From Marinobacter sp. LQ44 (GTDB taxonomy: Bacteria > Pseudomonadota > Gammaproteobacteria > Pseudomonadales > Oleiphilaceae): a DNA stretch of 64,000 bases. Where the stretch lies: assembly GCF_001447155.2 (NCBI RefSeq), contig NZ_CP014754.1:1922001-1986000 (forward strand), read 5' to 3'. Position numbers and translations under genes: made by a program. Position 1 is the first letter of the stretch; each line of letters begins with the position of its first letter. The notes under the pieces are model-generated. The model saw only the letters and a list, made by a program, of their open reading frames with translations. It searched no databases and had not been told where the DNA came from. Shown here in pieces: positions 58,487 through 64,000 of the stretch.

Positions 58487-58756
58487 TTATTTCCACTCAA
58501 GGATGAAGTGGTCATCGTCTTCGTCGACGTTGCCGCCAATACTGATGACATCGATAAGCATTTCCTGAACGTCCCAGTCACGCCCGAGTTTCTCTTCCAT
58601 GGTTTCCCGGTTGATCACCAGGCGCTTCTCGGCCTGGATCCGGATCATGGCCGGCTGGTGCTGCAGCTCTGCCTCCGGGTTATCTTCCATCACGGCTTCC
58701 GCCAGATAACGGGCGTTGTCGTTGTCCTGAAATACAATGAATACGAGCTGGCTCAT
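58487..58756 (-). CDS. dmpM: Phenol hydroxylase effector component P2
   Basis: An 89-residue cofactor-free effector protein of the MmoB/DmpM family (VFIVFQDNDNARYLAEAV; WDVQEMLIDVISIGGNVDEDDDH). It binds the oxygenase and tunes the di-iron site. It overlaps dmpL by ATGA. Confidence 0.93.
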   Translation of the reverse strand: MSQLVFIVFQDNDNARYLAEAVMEDNPEAELQHQPAMIRIQAEKRLVINRETMEEKLGRDWDVQEMLIDVISIGGNVDEDDDHFILEWK

Positions 58757-59754
58757 GCGGATACTCCCTGGCTCTGCAGACCGACTTTCTTCAGGCGGGT
58801 AGACAGTTCCGCCCGGGCTTCGTCCAGTGCTTCAACGCCAACCGAGGCCTCTGCCAGTGGTTTAAGCGCGCTGTAAACCTGGGGCTCCCAGTGGTCGACC
58901 CACTGCTGGAGCTGTGCAATGTTGGCGTCGCTTTCACCGGCCACGGCTTTCATCATGGCGTTGGTCCAGCGCAGGGTGTCCTTGTACCAGTCACGCATGA
59001 ACTCGGTGAGCATGGAGACGTCCTCGGCACCCTGGCTTTCCAGCCACTCATCCATCTTGTGATAGACCAGCGGGAACATCAGGCCGTCCATCAGGATGTT
59101 CTGCAGCAGGGTCAGCTCGAACCAGTCCTGCACCACCAGTGAGTCTTCCACCAGCTTGCGCAGGGGCTGCCACAGCTCGTCGTCCATCCAGTAGCCCTTG
59201 GATTCGTCCAGGGCGGTGCCGGTGCTGCCATCAATCATCAAGGCTATGCGGGACAGATACTGGCCAATCCCAAGGCGGTCCATGGCCTGATAAATGTGCA
59301 TCTGGGACACAGTTGTTGCAGTGGCCTCACCGGCAATCTTGCTGTTGTTCATGTTGGCGCCCAGTTCCACATGGCGCAGGGGCACCATCAGGCGCAGCAA
59401 CAGCTTCTGGGTTTCTTCCGGCAGGCGGGTCAGCAGGTTGCGCTTGTCACAGAAGCCGTAGCTGGTTTCAGCCTGTTCCTGCATCTTGGCGCGGTTACCC
59501 ACATAGGCACCGTAGTAGAACTGACGGGGGTCAGACACCGCATACCAGTCTTCCATCCGGATCGCGGTGCGGCGCTCGTCATTGAGCTCGTAGTTTGCAT
59601 CCCACTGCGGGCGATAATGGAAGTTGGTTTTCGCTTCCAGGTCGTAGCTGGCTTCCTGGTAACGGGTAGCCGGCTTCTCGCCAAAACGACGGGCGATGTG
59701 GCTGTAGGTCTGGCGAATAGGTTCCACCGAGGTGGTTTTGATTTCGATACTCAT
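58753..59754 (-). CDS. dmpL: Phenol hydroxylase beta subunit (P1)
   Basis: A 333-residue structural subunit of the di-iron oxygenase, related to the alpha subunit but without a full set of iron ligands. Family blocks: WDANYELNDERRTAIRMEDWYAV and LRHVELGANMNNSK. It is complete and in the standard position between dmpK and dmpM. Confidence 0.93.
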   Translation of the reverse strand: MSIEIKTTSVEPIRQTYSHIARRFGEKPATRYQEASYDLEAKTNFHYRPQWDANYELNDERRTAIRMEDWYAVSDPRQFYYGAYVGNRAKMQEQAETSYGFCDKRNLLTRLPEETQKLLLRLMVPLRHVELGANMNNSKIAGEATATTVSQMHIYQAMDRLGIGQYLSRIALMIDGSTGTALDESKGYWMDDELWQPLRKLVEDSLVVQDWFELTLLQNILMDGLMFPLVYHKMDEWLESQGAEDVSMLTEFMRDWYKDTLRWTNAMMKAVAGESDANIAQLQQWVDHWEPQVYSALKPLAEASVGVEALDEARAELSTRLKKVGLQSQGVSA

Positions 59755-59809: not shown

Positions 59810-60070
59810 TCAATAACGCTGGCCGCGCTCTCCGAAGCGCCACTTGACCATGTCTTCGTCGATCTCGCGGATCATGTCCGAATTCATATGGACCACGTTG
59901 TTGTGCTTGCAGAAGATCTCGAAGGCTTCCCGTGGCAGCACAAGCTCGACGAACAGCTCCGGATAACCAATCGCAAAATCGAATTCCACGAATTTGTCAC
60001 CTGGCTCGCTGCGGACCCGGATATAGCGGGTCATTTCGTTAAAGGTCTTGGCTTCTGGCTGGTTCGTCAT
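59810..60070 (-). CDS. dmpK: Phenol hydroxylase component P0
   Basis: An 86-residue protein (TRYIRVRSEPGDKFVEFDFAIGYP; REIDEDMVKWRFGERGQRY). DmpK helps assemble the oxygenase, probably by loading iron, and is needed for growth on phenol in Pseudomonas. It is the first gene of the operon, about 30 bases after the predicted transcription start. Confidence 0.93.
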   Translation of the reverse strand: MTNQPEAKTFNEMTRYIRVRSEPGDKFVEFDFAIGYPELFVELVLPREAFEIFCKHNNVVHMNSDMIREIDEDMVKWRFGERGQRY

Positions 60071-60112: not shown

Positions 60113-60128
60113 AGCAACGGCTGTGCCA
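60113..60128 (-). promoter_or_regulatory. Sigma-54 promoter of the dmp operon
   Basis: On the minus strand the sequence reads TGGCACAGCCGTTGCT, a textbook -24 (GG) and -12 (GC) element with proper spacing. It lies 43 bases upstream of the dmpK start codon, in the intergenic region shared with dmpR. The identical 16-mer occurs at 62335-62350. Confidence 0.88.
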
Positions 60129-60256
60129 CTTCGGAGACGACCACCACGAGAAAGTATGTAGACCAATGTTTTTGATAGGTTTTTCAGGATCAAACGAACG
60201 CTTCAAGCGGTTAAAACGAGCTCCGAACTTCGGCTCGAGAGGGGTTCTTTTTTCAC

Positions 60257-60377
60257 CAAATGATCAAAACCAAGGGTGATCTGACCAAATGCTCAGACCA
60301 AGGCCCAATTCAACGATCACCTCCATTTTTTTACTATTTGGTTGATTTTTGACCTTGATCAGGTGTTAGATGATCAA
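60257..60377. promoter_or_regulatory. Probable DmpR upstream activating sites
   Basis: Several TTGATCA-type half-sites lie 130-250 bases upstream of the dmpK promoter: TTTGATCAT (minus strand, 60260-60268), a TTGATTTTTGACC stretch at 60342-60354, and the inverted pair TTGATCA (60355-60361) and TGATCAA (60371-60377). They resemble the DmpR/XylR enhancer consensus built from TTGATC and GATCAA. Part of this region must also hold the dmpR promoter, which I could not define. Confidence 0.6.
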
Positions 60378-60434: not shown

Positions 60435-62138
60435 ATGGCTGTCAGTTACAAGCCACAACTGAACTACACCGATTTCAAGGATCTGACGGAGCAGATTCAT
60501 TTCCAAAGCTCGGAAGGCAAGATCTGGTTTGGCGAGCAGCGGATGCTGCTGATGAACCTCACCTCTCTGGGTGCGTTTCGCCGTGAGATCGTCAACAGCA
60601 TGGGCGCAGAGAGAGCCAAGGGGTTCTTTCTGCGGCTGGGTTATCTGTCTGGTCTGAAAGATGCCGAGCTGGCCCGCAAACTTCGCCCGCATTGCAGTGA
60701 GCTGGACATTTTCCTGGCAGGCCCCCAGTTACACTCGCTCAAAGGCATGGTCAAGGTGATCCCGCTGGAAATCGATCTGGACCAGGAAACCGGCGATTTC
60801 TATGGCCGCCTTGAATGGATTGACTCCTGGGAAGTGGAAATCTGCAAAACCGAACTGGGGCAAATGAGCGAGCCGGCCTGCTGGGTTTTGCTGGGGTACG
60901 CCTGCGCCTATACATCGTCATTCATGGGGCGGGAAATTATCTTCCGGGAGGTGAGTTGTCGGGGTTGTGGCGACGAGAAATGCATTATTGAAGGCAAACC
61001 GGCAGAGGAATGGCCGGATGCAAAAGAATTTTCCCGCCACTTCAAAGCAGACCCGATCATTGAAGAGCTCTACGACCTGCAGGAGCAACTGAACTCCCTG
61101 CGCAGTACCCTGCAGCGACAGCAGGGCCAGTACTACGGCATCGGCCAGTCGGCTTCCTATAACAAAGTGTGCAAGATGATCGACAAGGCAGCCCAGGGCA
61201 AGGTGTCTGTGCTGCTGCTCGGTGAAACCGGCGTTGGTAAGGAGGTCATCGCCAAGAGTGTTCACCTCCGCAGCGAGCGGGCTGACGGCCCGTTCATCGC
61301 CGTCAACTGCGCTGCCATTCCGCCAGACCTGATTGAAGCCGAGCTGTTCGGGGTGGAAAAAGGCGCCTATACCGGCGCCAACCAGGCCCGTGAGGGTCGC
61401 TTCGAACGCGCCCACGGCGGCACGATTTTTCTGGACGAAGTGATTGAACTGACCCCTCGGGCCCAGGCAACCCTGTTAAGGGTTCTGCAGGAGGGCGAGT
61501 TGGAGCGGGTGGGCGACAACCGTACCCGCAAGGTGAATGTCCGGGTGATTGCCGCGACTAATGAAAGCCTTGAGCAAGCGGTCGAGCAAGGCCGGTTCCG
61601 GGCCGATCTGTTCTATCGCCTCAACGTGTTCCCGGTACAGATTCCGGCCTTGCGGGATCGCCTGGAAGACCTGCCTCTGCTGGTGGGGCACTTTCTTGAA
61701 AAGTTTCACGCCCAGTACGAGAAGCGCACGCTTGGCCTCTCCGACAAGGCATTGTCGCTGTGCATGAGCTACCACTGGCCGGGCAATATCCGGGAACTGG
61801 AGAATGTGATTGAGCGGGGGGTGATCCTGACCGACAACAACGAAACCATCAGTCAGGATGCCCTGTTTGTGACTCCGCCCGCGACGGACAAACAGCCAGG
61901 TGAGCGTATTGATGAAGAAGGCAATATGCGGTCCGGCCCACCGGAAGGCGGCACGAGCAGCTGGTCAGATACGATTCTGGGGGCTGGAATAAGCCTGGAT
62001 GAGGTAGAGGAAACCCTGATGCGCCAAGCCATGGAGCAAGCCAATCAGAACGTCTCCAAAGCCGCCCGACTGCTGGGCCTCACTCGCCCCGCCCTAGCTT
62101 ACCGCCTGAAGAAATCCGGCATTCTTGTTGAAAGCTGA
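60435..62138 (+). CDS. dmpR: Sigma-54-dependent phenol-responsive activator
   Basis: A 567-residue NtrC-type activator. The N-terminal V4R sensor keeps His100 and Trp128 (phenol contacts) and Cys149, Glu172, Cys175 and Cys183 (zinc site), at a constant offset of six from the numbering I recall for MopR. The AAA+ domain has Walker A GETGVGKE (263-270), the sigma-54 contact loop GAYTGA (310-315) and Walker B TIFLDE (330-335). The C-terminal Fis-type HTH is NVSKAARLLGLTRPALAYRL. It activates the divergent dmp operon when phenol is bound, and probably the downstream operon at 62400 as well. Confidence 0.95.
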   Translation: MAVSYKPQLNYTDFKDLTEQIHFQSSEGKIWFGEQRMLLMNLTSLGAFRREIVNSMGAERAKGFFLRLGYLSGLKDAELARKLRPHCSELDIFLAGPQLHSLKGMVKVIPLEIDLDQETGDFYGRLEWIDSWEVEICKTELGQMSEPACWVLLGYACAYTSSFMGREIIFREVSCRGCGDEKCIIEGKPAEEWPDAKEFSRHFKADPIIEELYDLQEQLNSLRSTLQRQQGQYYGIGQSASYNKVCKMIDKAAQGKVSVLLLGETGVGKEVIAKSVHLRSERADGPFIAVNCAAIPPDLIEAELFGVEKGAYTGANQAREGRFERAHGGTIFLDEVIELTPRAQATLLRVLQEGELERVGDNRTRKVNVRVIAATNESLEQAVEQGRFRADLFYRLNVFPVQIPALRDRLEDLPLLVGHFLEKFHAQYEKRTLGLSDKALSLCMSYHWPGNIRELENVIERGVILTDNNETISQDALFVTPPATDKQPGERIDEEGNMRSGPPEGGTSSWSDTILGAGISLDEVEETLMRQAMEQANQNVSKAARLLGLTRPALAYRLKKSGILVES

Positions 62139-62219
62139 CCAGCAACCTGACTCTTGCAGCAACAGGGATGTTGCAGCACTTGACCGCCGCCTTACGAAAT
62201 GGACAACCCGCCAGATCAC

Positions 62220-62275
62220 TTGATCATTTGATTAAAATCAAACCCTGAAAATCCTCCTCTGCTGTTCGATCAAAC
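62220..62275 (+). promoter_or_regulatory. Second set of DmpR-like activating sites
   Basis: TTGATCA at 62220-62226 runs into TTTGATTAAAATCAAA at 62227-62242, and TTCGATCAAAC is at 62265-62275. They lie about 60-115 bases upstream of the sigma-54 promoter at 62335 and resemble the half-sites in front of dmpK. Confidence 0.55.
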
Positions 62276-62334
62276 CACTCGACGCTTTCCATTTATATCA
62301 ATTATTCAACAACTTAATTAATCAATATCCCAAA

Positions 62335-62350
62335 TGGCACAGCCGTTGCT
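62335..62350 (+). promoter_or_regulatory. Sigma-54 promoter, identical to that of dmpK
   Basis: TGGCACAGCCGTTGCT is base-for-base the same as the dmpK promoter element and faces the YCF48-like gene, whose start codon is 50 bases further on. An ATG inside the element at 62334 opens a longer frame, which is rejected for this reason. Confidence 0.85.
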
Positions 62351-62399
62351 GATGGCATTGTCAGTCGCTTTTCACAACAACAAAGACGGTGACAAAACA

Positions 62400-63392
62400 A
62401 TGCAAAACGCTTTCCTGCGCTCAACGCGCAAAACGGCGGTGGCTGTCGCAGTAGTCGGCGCATCGTCGCTTATCCTGACCGGGTGCGAAGCACCGCTGAA
62501 TCTGGAATCCGTCAGGGCGGTTTCAGAGCAACCCTCAAAACGCACAGATTTCTACCAGGCCATGGCCAGCAACCACCAGGTGATTGTGGTGTCTGGCAAT
62601 GATGGGGTTCTCCTGGCCAGTGATGACCAAGGCGATACCTGGAAGCGGCTACCGGTCGGCGCCGCCCGCAGTTTCCTGGCCATGGATGTGTGCCCAGATA
62701 ACTCCTTTGTCGCGCTGGCCTTCGACAACCACATCTGGCACGGCACAGCCGATGCGTCCGAGTGGACAGCCCACGCCATGCCCAGCCAGGAGCAGATGAT
62801 GACCGCGGCCTGCGGGCCCGATGGTAGCTGGCTCGCCGCAGGCAGCTTTACCACCGTTCAGTTCAGCACCGATCAAGGCGAAAGCTGGGACGAAACCTCC
62901 CTCTACGAAGACGCCATTATCAACAATCTCCAGTTTGTCAGTGACGAGCAGGTGATCGCCACCGGCGAATACGGGCTGGTTCTGCGCAGCGACGACAGTG
63001 GCATGAACTGGGAAATCGCCGGCCGTGTTCCGGACGAGTTCTACATTCACGCCAGTTACTTCGCATCTGAGTCTGAAGGCTGGGTAGGTGGCCTGAACGG
63101 CTTCATCTATCACACCACGGACGGCGGTGAGAGCTGGAATCAGGTGCCGGCCGAAACCTCCGCACCGGTGTTTGGCTTCATTGCGGGTGCAGGTGCCGTC
63201 TACGCCCTGGCCGATAACGCCACGGTACTGAAACTGGGCGATGCCGGCTGGAGAAAGATCTCGGAATCCAGCCAACCACTCTACCTGAGAGCCGGGCTGG
63301 CTCTGCCAGACCATCGCCTGTTGGTGGCCGGTGGCCGGGGCCTGCTCTTCGACCTTGAACTCCCCACGGCCCTTGCCGCCAGTAAAGACTGA
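62400..63392 (+). CDS. YCF48-like beta-propeller lipoprotein
   Basis: A 330-residue lipoprotein. The signal ends in SLILTGC with the lipidated Cys near residue 29. The mature protein has repeated BNR/YCF48-type blocks (LLASDDQGDTWKRL, FSTDQGESWDET, LRSDDSGMNWEIA, YHTTDGGESWNQ), about one per propeller blade. Such proteins often sit before an RND/MMPL transporter gene, as here, and may act as its periplasmic partner. The start at 62400 follows GGTGAC and lies downstream of the sigma-54 promoter. The function of the pair is unknown. Confidence 0.82.
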   Translation: MQNAFLRSTRKTAVAVAVVGASSLILTGCEAPLNLESVRAVSEQPSKRTDFYQAMASNHQVIVVSGNDGVLLASDDQGDTWKRLPVGAARSFLAMDVCPDNSFVALAFDNHIWHGTADASEWTAHAMPSQEQMMTAACGPDGSWLAAGSFTTVQFSTDQGESWDETSLYEDAIINNLQFVSDEQVIATGEYGLVLRSDDSGMNWEIAGRVPDEFYIHASYFASESEGWVGGLNGFIYHTTDGGESWNQVPAETSAPVFGFIAGAGAVYALADNATVLKLGDAGWRKISESSQPLYLRAGLALPDHRLLVAGGRGLLFDLELPTALAASKD

Positions 63393-63404
63393 GGATTCCC
63401 ACCA

Positions 63405-64000
63405 TGTCCCAACTGCATCGTTTCACGCATTTGCTGCACCTGTTGGAAGTGTGGATCTTCAACAATCCACGCAAGGTGTTGTCGTTAATTGCCATTCTCA
63501 CCCTGATGTTTGCCCTGCGCATTCCGGGGCTCAAGATTTTCACCGATTTCGCGGACCTGTTGCCGCAACAGCACCCCTACATTGAGCTGCACAACAGCAT
63601 CAAAGACAGCTTTGGCGGCGCCAACGTGCTGGTGGTTGGTGTTGAATTCGAAGAAGGGGACATTTTCACCAACGAGAACCTGGCGCGGATTGATCGCATT
63701 ACCCAAGCGGTGGACAGCCTGCCGGGGGTCAACCACAACCTGGTGTCCAGCGTTACCCACCGCAATTCCCGGAAGGTGTGGCTGACGGAAGTCGGCAGCA
63801 TCAACTCCGAGCCTTACTACGATTCCACCCGGGGCCTGTACTCACCGGAGGCTCTTGAAGCCATGCGTGCGGATGTGGCTGCCAACCCGCGGGTTTACGG
63901 CCCCCTGGTGTCACCGGACCTGAAGATGGCCCTGGTGAAAGCCCAGCTGATTGAAGGCCAACTGGACTACGAAACAACCTTCGCCCAACTCCAGCAGCTT
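63405..64000 (+). CDS. MMPL/RND-family transporter (partial, cut by window end)
   Basis: The first 198 residues of a large transporter starting MSQLHRFTHLLHLLEVWIFN. One N-terminal helix (VLSLIAILTLMFALRIPGL) is followed by a periplasmic domain (FADLLPQQHPYIELHNSIKDSFGGANVLVVGVE), typical of the RND superfamily MMPL-like exporters. The gene starts 12 bases after the YCF48-like gene and must be in the same operon. The rest lies outside the window. It may import or export a hydrophobic aromatic; the direction is not known. Confidence 0.82.

Follow-up and report, generated by a model that had tools for sequence, protein, structure and literature searches.

DmpR is a textbook model regulator, widely used as a part in biosensors, and is generally regarded as acting on a single operon. 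Regulators of this family bind phenol-type effectors, and the promoters targeted by DmpR and XylR typically carry an IHF site between the upstream enhancer sites (UAS) and the promoter; the Po promoter of the dmp operon of Pseudomonas CF600 combines a DmpR-type UAS pair with a -24/-12 element. Po drives phenol hydroxylase, whereas at the locus described here, in Marinobacter sp. LQ44, a second promoter appears to drive a transporter. According to a rule quoted for DmpR/XylR targets, a palindromic TTGATCA-type site stands 100-200 bp before the promoter, and there are two such sites whose centres lie 29-42 bp apart (PMC6449761).

Several systems described previously resemble this one in different respects. 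Castellaniella defragrans tolerated terpenes less well and accumulated more Nile Red once AmeABCD was deleted (PMC6394551). AmeABCD comprises the same four families (DUF1302, DUF1329, COG4447/YCF48 and HAE3 RND) and is likewise linked to a hydrocarbon pathway; however, its gene order differs from the one found here, its substrates are monoterpenes, and the available text of that report does not mention sigma-54 control (PMC6394551). In Aromatoleum aromaticum EbN1, the gene for a sigma-54 aromatic sensor, EtpR, is flanked by a catabolic cluster on one side and a 6.5-kb efflux cluster on the other, and the transcripts of both clusters were lost in an etpR deletion, although that pathway is the anaerobic one for p-ethylphenol and the regulator is a different one (PMC4630880). 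Among Betaproteobacteria, COG4447, COG1033, PF07044 and DUF1302 were predicted in AphS, AphR and AphT regulons, with all four predicted as targets of the XylR/DmpR-type AphR of Burkholderia sp. 383, and the authors suggested that these genes help cells to withstand toxic aromatics and solvent stress (PMC6449761). The AphR motif, GCTTGATCATTTGATCATGC, resembles the enhancer site reported here (PMC6449761); the Aph regulons are a betaproteobacterial prediction that involves AphS or AphT in other species, as opposed to a separate promoter beside dmpR in Gammaproteobacteria. DUF1302 and DUF1329 genes were also noted in a phenol-hydroxylase cluster of Zoogloea together with a sigma-54 regulator (PMC7012976).

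Among open-licence papers, judged by title and the opening of the abstract, we recognised no report of DmpR control over this operon in Marinobacter or Pseudomonas. The original prediction, which placed a transporter of this type outside the classical dmp picture, is only partly right: the DmpR-transporter operon itself was not found in these papers, but the same families had been predicted under AphR and an EtpR-dependent efflux cluster had been demonstrated.

Organization of the dmpR locus

The window, i.e., the whole stretch of 64,000 nucleotides analysed, holds the following features around dmpR.

58753..59754, minus strand: dmpL, phenol hydroxylase component (Pfam Phenol_Hydrox)
59810..60070, minus strand: dmpK, first gene of the phenol operon (Pfam Phenol_hyd_sub)
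60113..60128, minus strand: predicted sigma-54 -24/-12 promoter of the phenol operon (Po-like), exact 16-mer
about 60250..60267, minus strand: predicted DmpR-type enhancer UAS2 of the phenol operon, TTGATCATTTGGTGAAAA (sequence match)
60281..60296, minus strand: predicted second enhancer of the phenol operon, UAS1
60435..62138, plus strand: dmpR, activator with XylR_N, V4R, sigma-54 AAA and Fis HTH domains (domain matches)
62191..62206, plus strand: predicted UAS1 of the transporter operon, weak
62220..62237, plus strand: predicted UAS2, main enhancer of the transporter operon, TTGATCATTTGATTAAAA (genome word search and matrix)
62265..62275, plus strand: third half-site, degenerate
62335..62350, plus strand: predicted sigma-54 -24/-12 promoter of the transporter operon, exact 16-mer, conserved in the genus and beyond
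62351..62399, plus strand: conserved leader with a AANAANAA motif, possible Hfq/Crc site (leader alignment)
62400..63392, plus strand: YCF48/COG4447-like lipoprotein, first gene of the transporter operon (domain match, lipobox LTGC)
63404..64000 and beyond the window, plus strand: RND/MMPL (HAE3-like) transporter, 821 residues (profile matches)

The genes dmpK and dmpL run divergent to dmpR, and the further open frames past dmpL are presumably phenol/meta pathway genes. The regulator has both the domains and the sensor residues of a DmpR: its best full-length match among solved structures is CapR (6iy8), its sensor part also matches MopR, and the residues that contact phenol (H, W) and bind zinc (C, E, C, C) in MopR are identical in the alignment of DmpR to the solved CapR. 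The NCBIfam MobR model gave 704 bits on this protein, under its cut-off of 999.

Downstream of dmpR, a 261-bp gap holds the weak and the strong DmpR-type sites, the -24/-12 element and a 49-nt leader, and is followed by genes in the order YCF48-RND-DUF1302-DUF1329, that is, a complete cassette of the AmeABCD type. The YCF48 gene likely starts at the ATG at 62400, which gives the lipobox; the listed open reading frame starts at 62334 and overlaps the promoter. The RND protein has hydrophobic segments consistent with a polytopic protein, scored 140 bits with the HAE3 model TIGR00921 (under the cut-off of 351.9) and weakly resembles both BstA, a sterol transporter, and MmpL3. The DUF1302 protein (647 aa, a predicted outer-membrane protein), the LolA-like DUF1329 protein (443 aa) and a terminator-like hairpin lie at G000:C1:1987912-1991250, G000 being the strain's own genome. 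Because DUF1329 is followed by a GC-rich hairpin and T tract (-17.8 kcal/mol, z -4.26, folded after being picked), the four genes look like one closed operon. Terminator-like matches as a group were not above chance in the stretch scanned (6 vs. a shuffle mean of 10.2), nor were sigma-70-like promoters (3 vs. a mean of 3.4).

Beyond the hairpin lie a PAS-MCP gene, an ABM-domain gene and a DASS transporter. A longer operon that would include these three was considered and is not favoured in this genome, given the strong hairpin with its T tract after DUF1329. Relatives of the strain's own MCP were found in 19, and of its own ABM gene in 13, of 42 long loci, which were drawn from 51 loci that include one cut locus (L116) and one plasmid locus (L162).

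A shared promoter architecture on both sides of dmpR

The starting observation was that a 16-mer, TGGCACAGCCGTTGCT, occurs twice in the window, and this was borne out: it is exact at 60113-60128 (minus strand), before dmpK, and at 62335-62350 (plus strand), before the YCF48-lipoprotein/RND operon, with no third exact copy, and the bases flanking the two copies, said to differ, are indeed unrelated. Allowing up to three mismatches, the window held four matches (shuffle mean 1.01; 2 of 100 shuffles reached four), only these two being exact. The looser word TGGCACN5TTGCW was not above chance in the window at up to one mismatch (3 matches vs. 3.9 expected), and its two exact matches there are the dmpK-side and transporter-side promoters. 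Across the own genome (4.44 Mb), it occurs exactly seven times (backward control, 0), and by coordinate comparison the other five are all more than 50 kb away from any other enhancer match. The GG and GC dinucleotides are properly spaced within TGGCAY-N5-TTGCW in 30 of 30 genus loci, as in sigma-54 promoters, and rpoN is present in the own genome.

TTGATCA-type half-sites had been noted upstream of both promoters, and we found TTGATCATTTGRTKAAAA perfect twice in the whole genome, once per operon, at 62220-62237 (plus strand) and 60250-60267 (minus strand); at up to three mismatches the genome gave 18 matches vs. 2 for the backward control. By hand count, the centres of UAS1 and UAS2 are 29 bp apart on both sides of dmpR, and the palindrome ahead of the transporter promoter lies within the 100-200 bp described for DmpR/XylR targets. 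The transporter-side UAS1 is weak in many genomes, including this one.

We next scored the transporter-side regions with a weight matrix trained on dmpK-side sites only (27 sites, 16 distinct; three of the 30 dmpK-side sequences, from G031, G045 and G046, yielded none). A site was present in all 30 regions, each above all 200 shuffles, although it is important to note that the matrix and the pattern used below were picked after viewing alignments, that the shuffles were mononucleotide, and that the genomes are related and the genus and named sets overlap. In 24 of these genomes the best enhancer stands 112-116 bp before the -24 element; in the other six it is at -68, and these also retain a core near -110. 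A fuller version of the third half-site occupies its position in six other genus genomes. With a crude pattern, two UAS cores stand 30-31 bp apart on the transporter side in 23 genomes and 33 bp apart in two, with no such spacing in five. The IHF consensus reached a mean best score of 7.7 of 9 on the transporter side (6.9 shuffled) and 7.1 on the dmpK side (6.8 shuffled), values that establish no site.

Conservation within Marinobacter

Among 124 genus genomes, the RND protein was matched at threshold in 31 and has an orthologue (at least 86%) in 30; dmpR was matched in 41 and has an orthologue (at least 76%) in 39, being in two pieces in G051 and G082 (at contig ends in the latter). All 30 genomes with the RND orthologue fall among the 39 with the dmpR orthologue, and in each dmpR adjoins, the RND match beginning 1248-1282 bp beyond the dmpR match (measured by hand). 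TGGCAY-N5-TTGCT stands 1065-1073 bp before the RND start in all 30, and on the dmpK side it is found in 30 of 30 loci examined, the promoters there having been read in 30 of the 39 dmpR-orthologue genomes. Conservation of the promoter in related genomes, which the original prediction proposed as a check, thus extends to both the -24/-12 element and the enhancer in every genus genome with the transporter (30 of 30).

The exact 16-mer itself is less constant, being present on the dmpK side in 14 of 30 genomes, on the transporter side in five of 30, and on both sides of the same genome in three of the 26 compared. We accordingly dropped 16-mer identity as evidence: with both sides identical in just three genomes, the identity in this strain is, judged from these alignments, incidental and says little alone, and the architecture is the conserved part. 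The original prediction would have been given up upon loss of the 16-mer in close relatives that keep both operons; exact identity is in fact absent in 23 of 26, but the -24/-12 core is retained, so that demand was too strict. Mean pairwise identity in a fixed register was 1.00 for the -12 and 0.91 for the -24 element (both largely set by the pattern that anchored the rows), 0.65 for the spacer, 0.68 for the first 29 leader bases, 0.40 for the stretch between UAS and promoter and 0.51 for the UAS region, where the UAS shifts by a few bases among genomes. The spacer drifts, with the -24/-12 core retained in 30 of 30.

Nine genus genomes carry the dmpR orthologue and lack the RND gene. No -24/-12-like match was found downstream of dmpR in six of them (G009, G052, G053, G078, G084 and G121); the other three (G045, G046 and G064, the last only 62% complete; loci L164, L165 and L167) have lost the transporter genes and have a decayed promoter left, now ahead of MCP or ABM genes. 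G046 retains an enhancer that fits the pattern, and, by eye, G045 and G046 retain the leader.

Distribution beyond the genus

Marinobacter also leads the named relatives of the RND protein, the best being M. shengliensis at 98% in a search that may omit records of the own genome. We collected 64 named loci and scored 61, leaving out two at contig ends (L116 and L153) and one in which YCF48 was not found (L154). Both promoter and enhancer are present in 49 of the 61 (RND 70-98%), 21 from Marinobacter and 28 from elsewhere, with promoter scores of 18-19 of 19 and enhancers equalled by at most one in 100 shuffles; since the 21 Marinobacter loci overlap the genus set, the two sets are not independent. 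The 12 most distant loci (RND 54-61%) lack both elements, their promoters scoring at most 16 and their best enhancers being reached by 6 to 97 of 100 shuffles. Of these 49 loci, 47 include dmpR. P. indoloxydans and P. chengduensis do not, but both genomes carry a 72% dmpR at another position, which in P. chengduensis is on the same contig as an operon that is inverted and retains its promoter.

A different arrangement is seen in two Halieaceae, Haliea alexandrii and Seongchinamella unica (L145 and L205), in which the YCF48-RND module sits among phenol hydroxylase/meta-cleavage genes, downstream of a dmpR homologue (51-53%). S. unica has a strict promoter match, TGGCACGGCCCTTGCT, before dmpK, and H. 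alexandrii has no strict match at the locus. Given this placement, co-regulation in these two genomes could come via the phenol operon itself. The module is not bound to dmpR everywhere, since a Woeseiaceae genome with the module gave no dmpR match at 1e-100.

The regulator is also found on plasmids (19 plasmid records matched), and two dmpR-bearing plasmids were examined. A conjugative plasmid of Pseudomonas veronii carries dmpR-YCF48-RND at L162:10001-12446; its RND may be broken, because the match is split into two pieces that overlap and the annotation lists no gene for it. The M. salarius plasmid pHL2708Z5 (L208) carries an 81% identical dmpR beside a toluene-4-monooxygenase-type operon, with no annotated RND, YCF48, DUF1302 or DUF1329 gene within 8 kb either side of dmpR.

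Regulation and probable function

The claim that DmpR activates the transport operon together with phenol degradation is supported by this comparative evidence, namely the enhancer and -24/-12 element in 30 of 30 genomes, dmpR adjacent in the same 30, and the missing -24/-12-like match in six of nine dmpR genomes without the transporter. We put the probability that the operon is under DmpR control via its own sigma-54 promoter at roughly 85%, and because the arrangement is retained in many related bacteria, an export-type pump is probably induced along with phenol breakdown. Under this model, phenol-bound DmpR would bind the UAS pair at about 62191-62237 and loop to sigma-54 RNA polymerase at 62335-62350, as at the divergent dmp operon, and transcription would start at about 62360. 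The products would be an inner-membrane RND pump, a LolA-like DUF1329 periplasmic carrier, a YCF48 lipoprotein and a DUF1302 outer-membrane protein. Together they would most likely carry phenolics, hydrophobic intermediates or damaged lipid of the membrane out through the envelope, as has been proposed for AmeABCD. Export or membrane detoxification is the most likely role in view of the AmeABCD deletion phenotypes, although we are less sure of the direction than of DmpR control.

Alternatively, the operon might be DmpR-controlled and the transporter work inward or in lipid trafficking (e.g., uptake of hydrophobic aromatics, or membrane repair), which would change the last step only. In P. putida, DUF1302/DUF1329 proteins were required for growth on Tween 20 and were proposed to make up a substrate transport system jointly with a periplasmic protein and a transporter of the efflux type (PMC10866462), so uptake or lipid transport is a possibility, one with which the LolA-like DUF1329 protein and the weak RND likeness to BstA and MmpL3 are also consistent. 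The increased Nile Red accumulation and terpene toxicity upon AmeABCD deletion point to export instead (PMC6394551), and we regard an inward or lipid role as a tentative second choice.

It is unlikely that the sigma-54 promoter is real and answers to some other enhancer-binding protein. Sigma-54 activators are many, and the dmpR search gave 22 first-look candidates in the own genome; however, the enhancer is shared with the dmp operon, with no further exact copy in the genome, adjacency to and co-occurrence with dmpR are strict, and neither promoter nor enhancer is present in any of the 12 distant loci scored, where dmpR is not part of the locus. That the 16-mer is a coincidence, or a recent functionless duplication of the dmp promoter, would fit the identical bases on both sides of dmpR but is highly improbable given the unrelated flanks, the constant core amid drifting spacers in 30 of 30, and retention beyond the genus, with conservation already contradicting it.

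Returning to DmpR control, the broadest form of the model, for which we see about even odds, is a two-armed DmpR unit in those Marinobacter, Halopseudomonas, Pseudomonas and Stutzerimonas that have the locus: one operon would degrade phenol, and another, served by a separate enhancer and sigma-54 promoter, would build a dedicated four-part envelope exporter so that phenol and related hydrophobic compounds stay below toxic concentrations. The module would then be intrinsic to the aerobic phenol pathway and not an accessory, as the fusion of both arms into one cluster in some Halieaceae suggests. A conserved second DmpR target would tie catabolism to solvent tolerance, could account for part of the phenol resistance of hydrocarbon degraders, and offers a natural, testable idea of what the poorly characterised DUF1302/DUF1329/HAE3 transporter group carries.

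Leader motif and possible catabolite repression

The leader motif AANAANAA is of the Hfq/Crc type and occurs in all 30 transporter leaders and in 17 of the 30 dmpK leaders (8.7% and 7.7%, respectively, in shuffles); in the strain's own dmpK leader none is visible by eye. Catabolite repression of operons with such leaders is possible. A full-length CrcZ match at G000:C1:3136208-3136616 (minus strand) scored 48.6 bits, below the gathering score of 95; this region holds 12 overlapping AANAANAA words in 409 nt and is possibly a diverged CrcZ.
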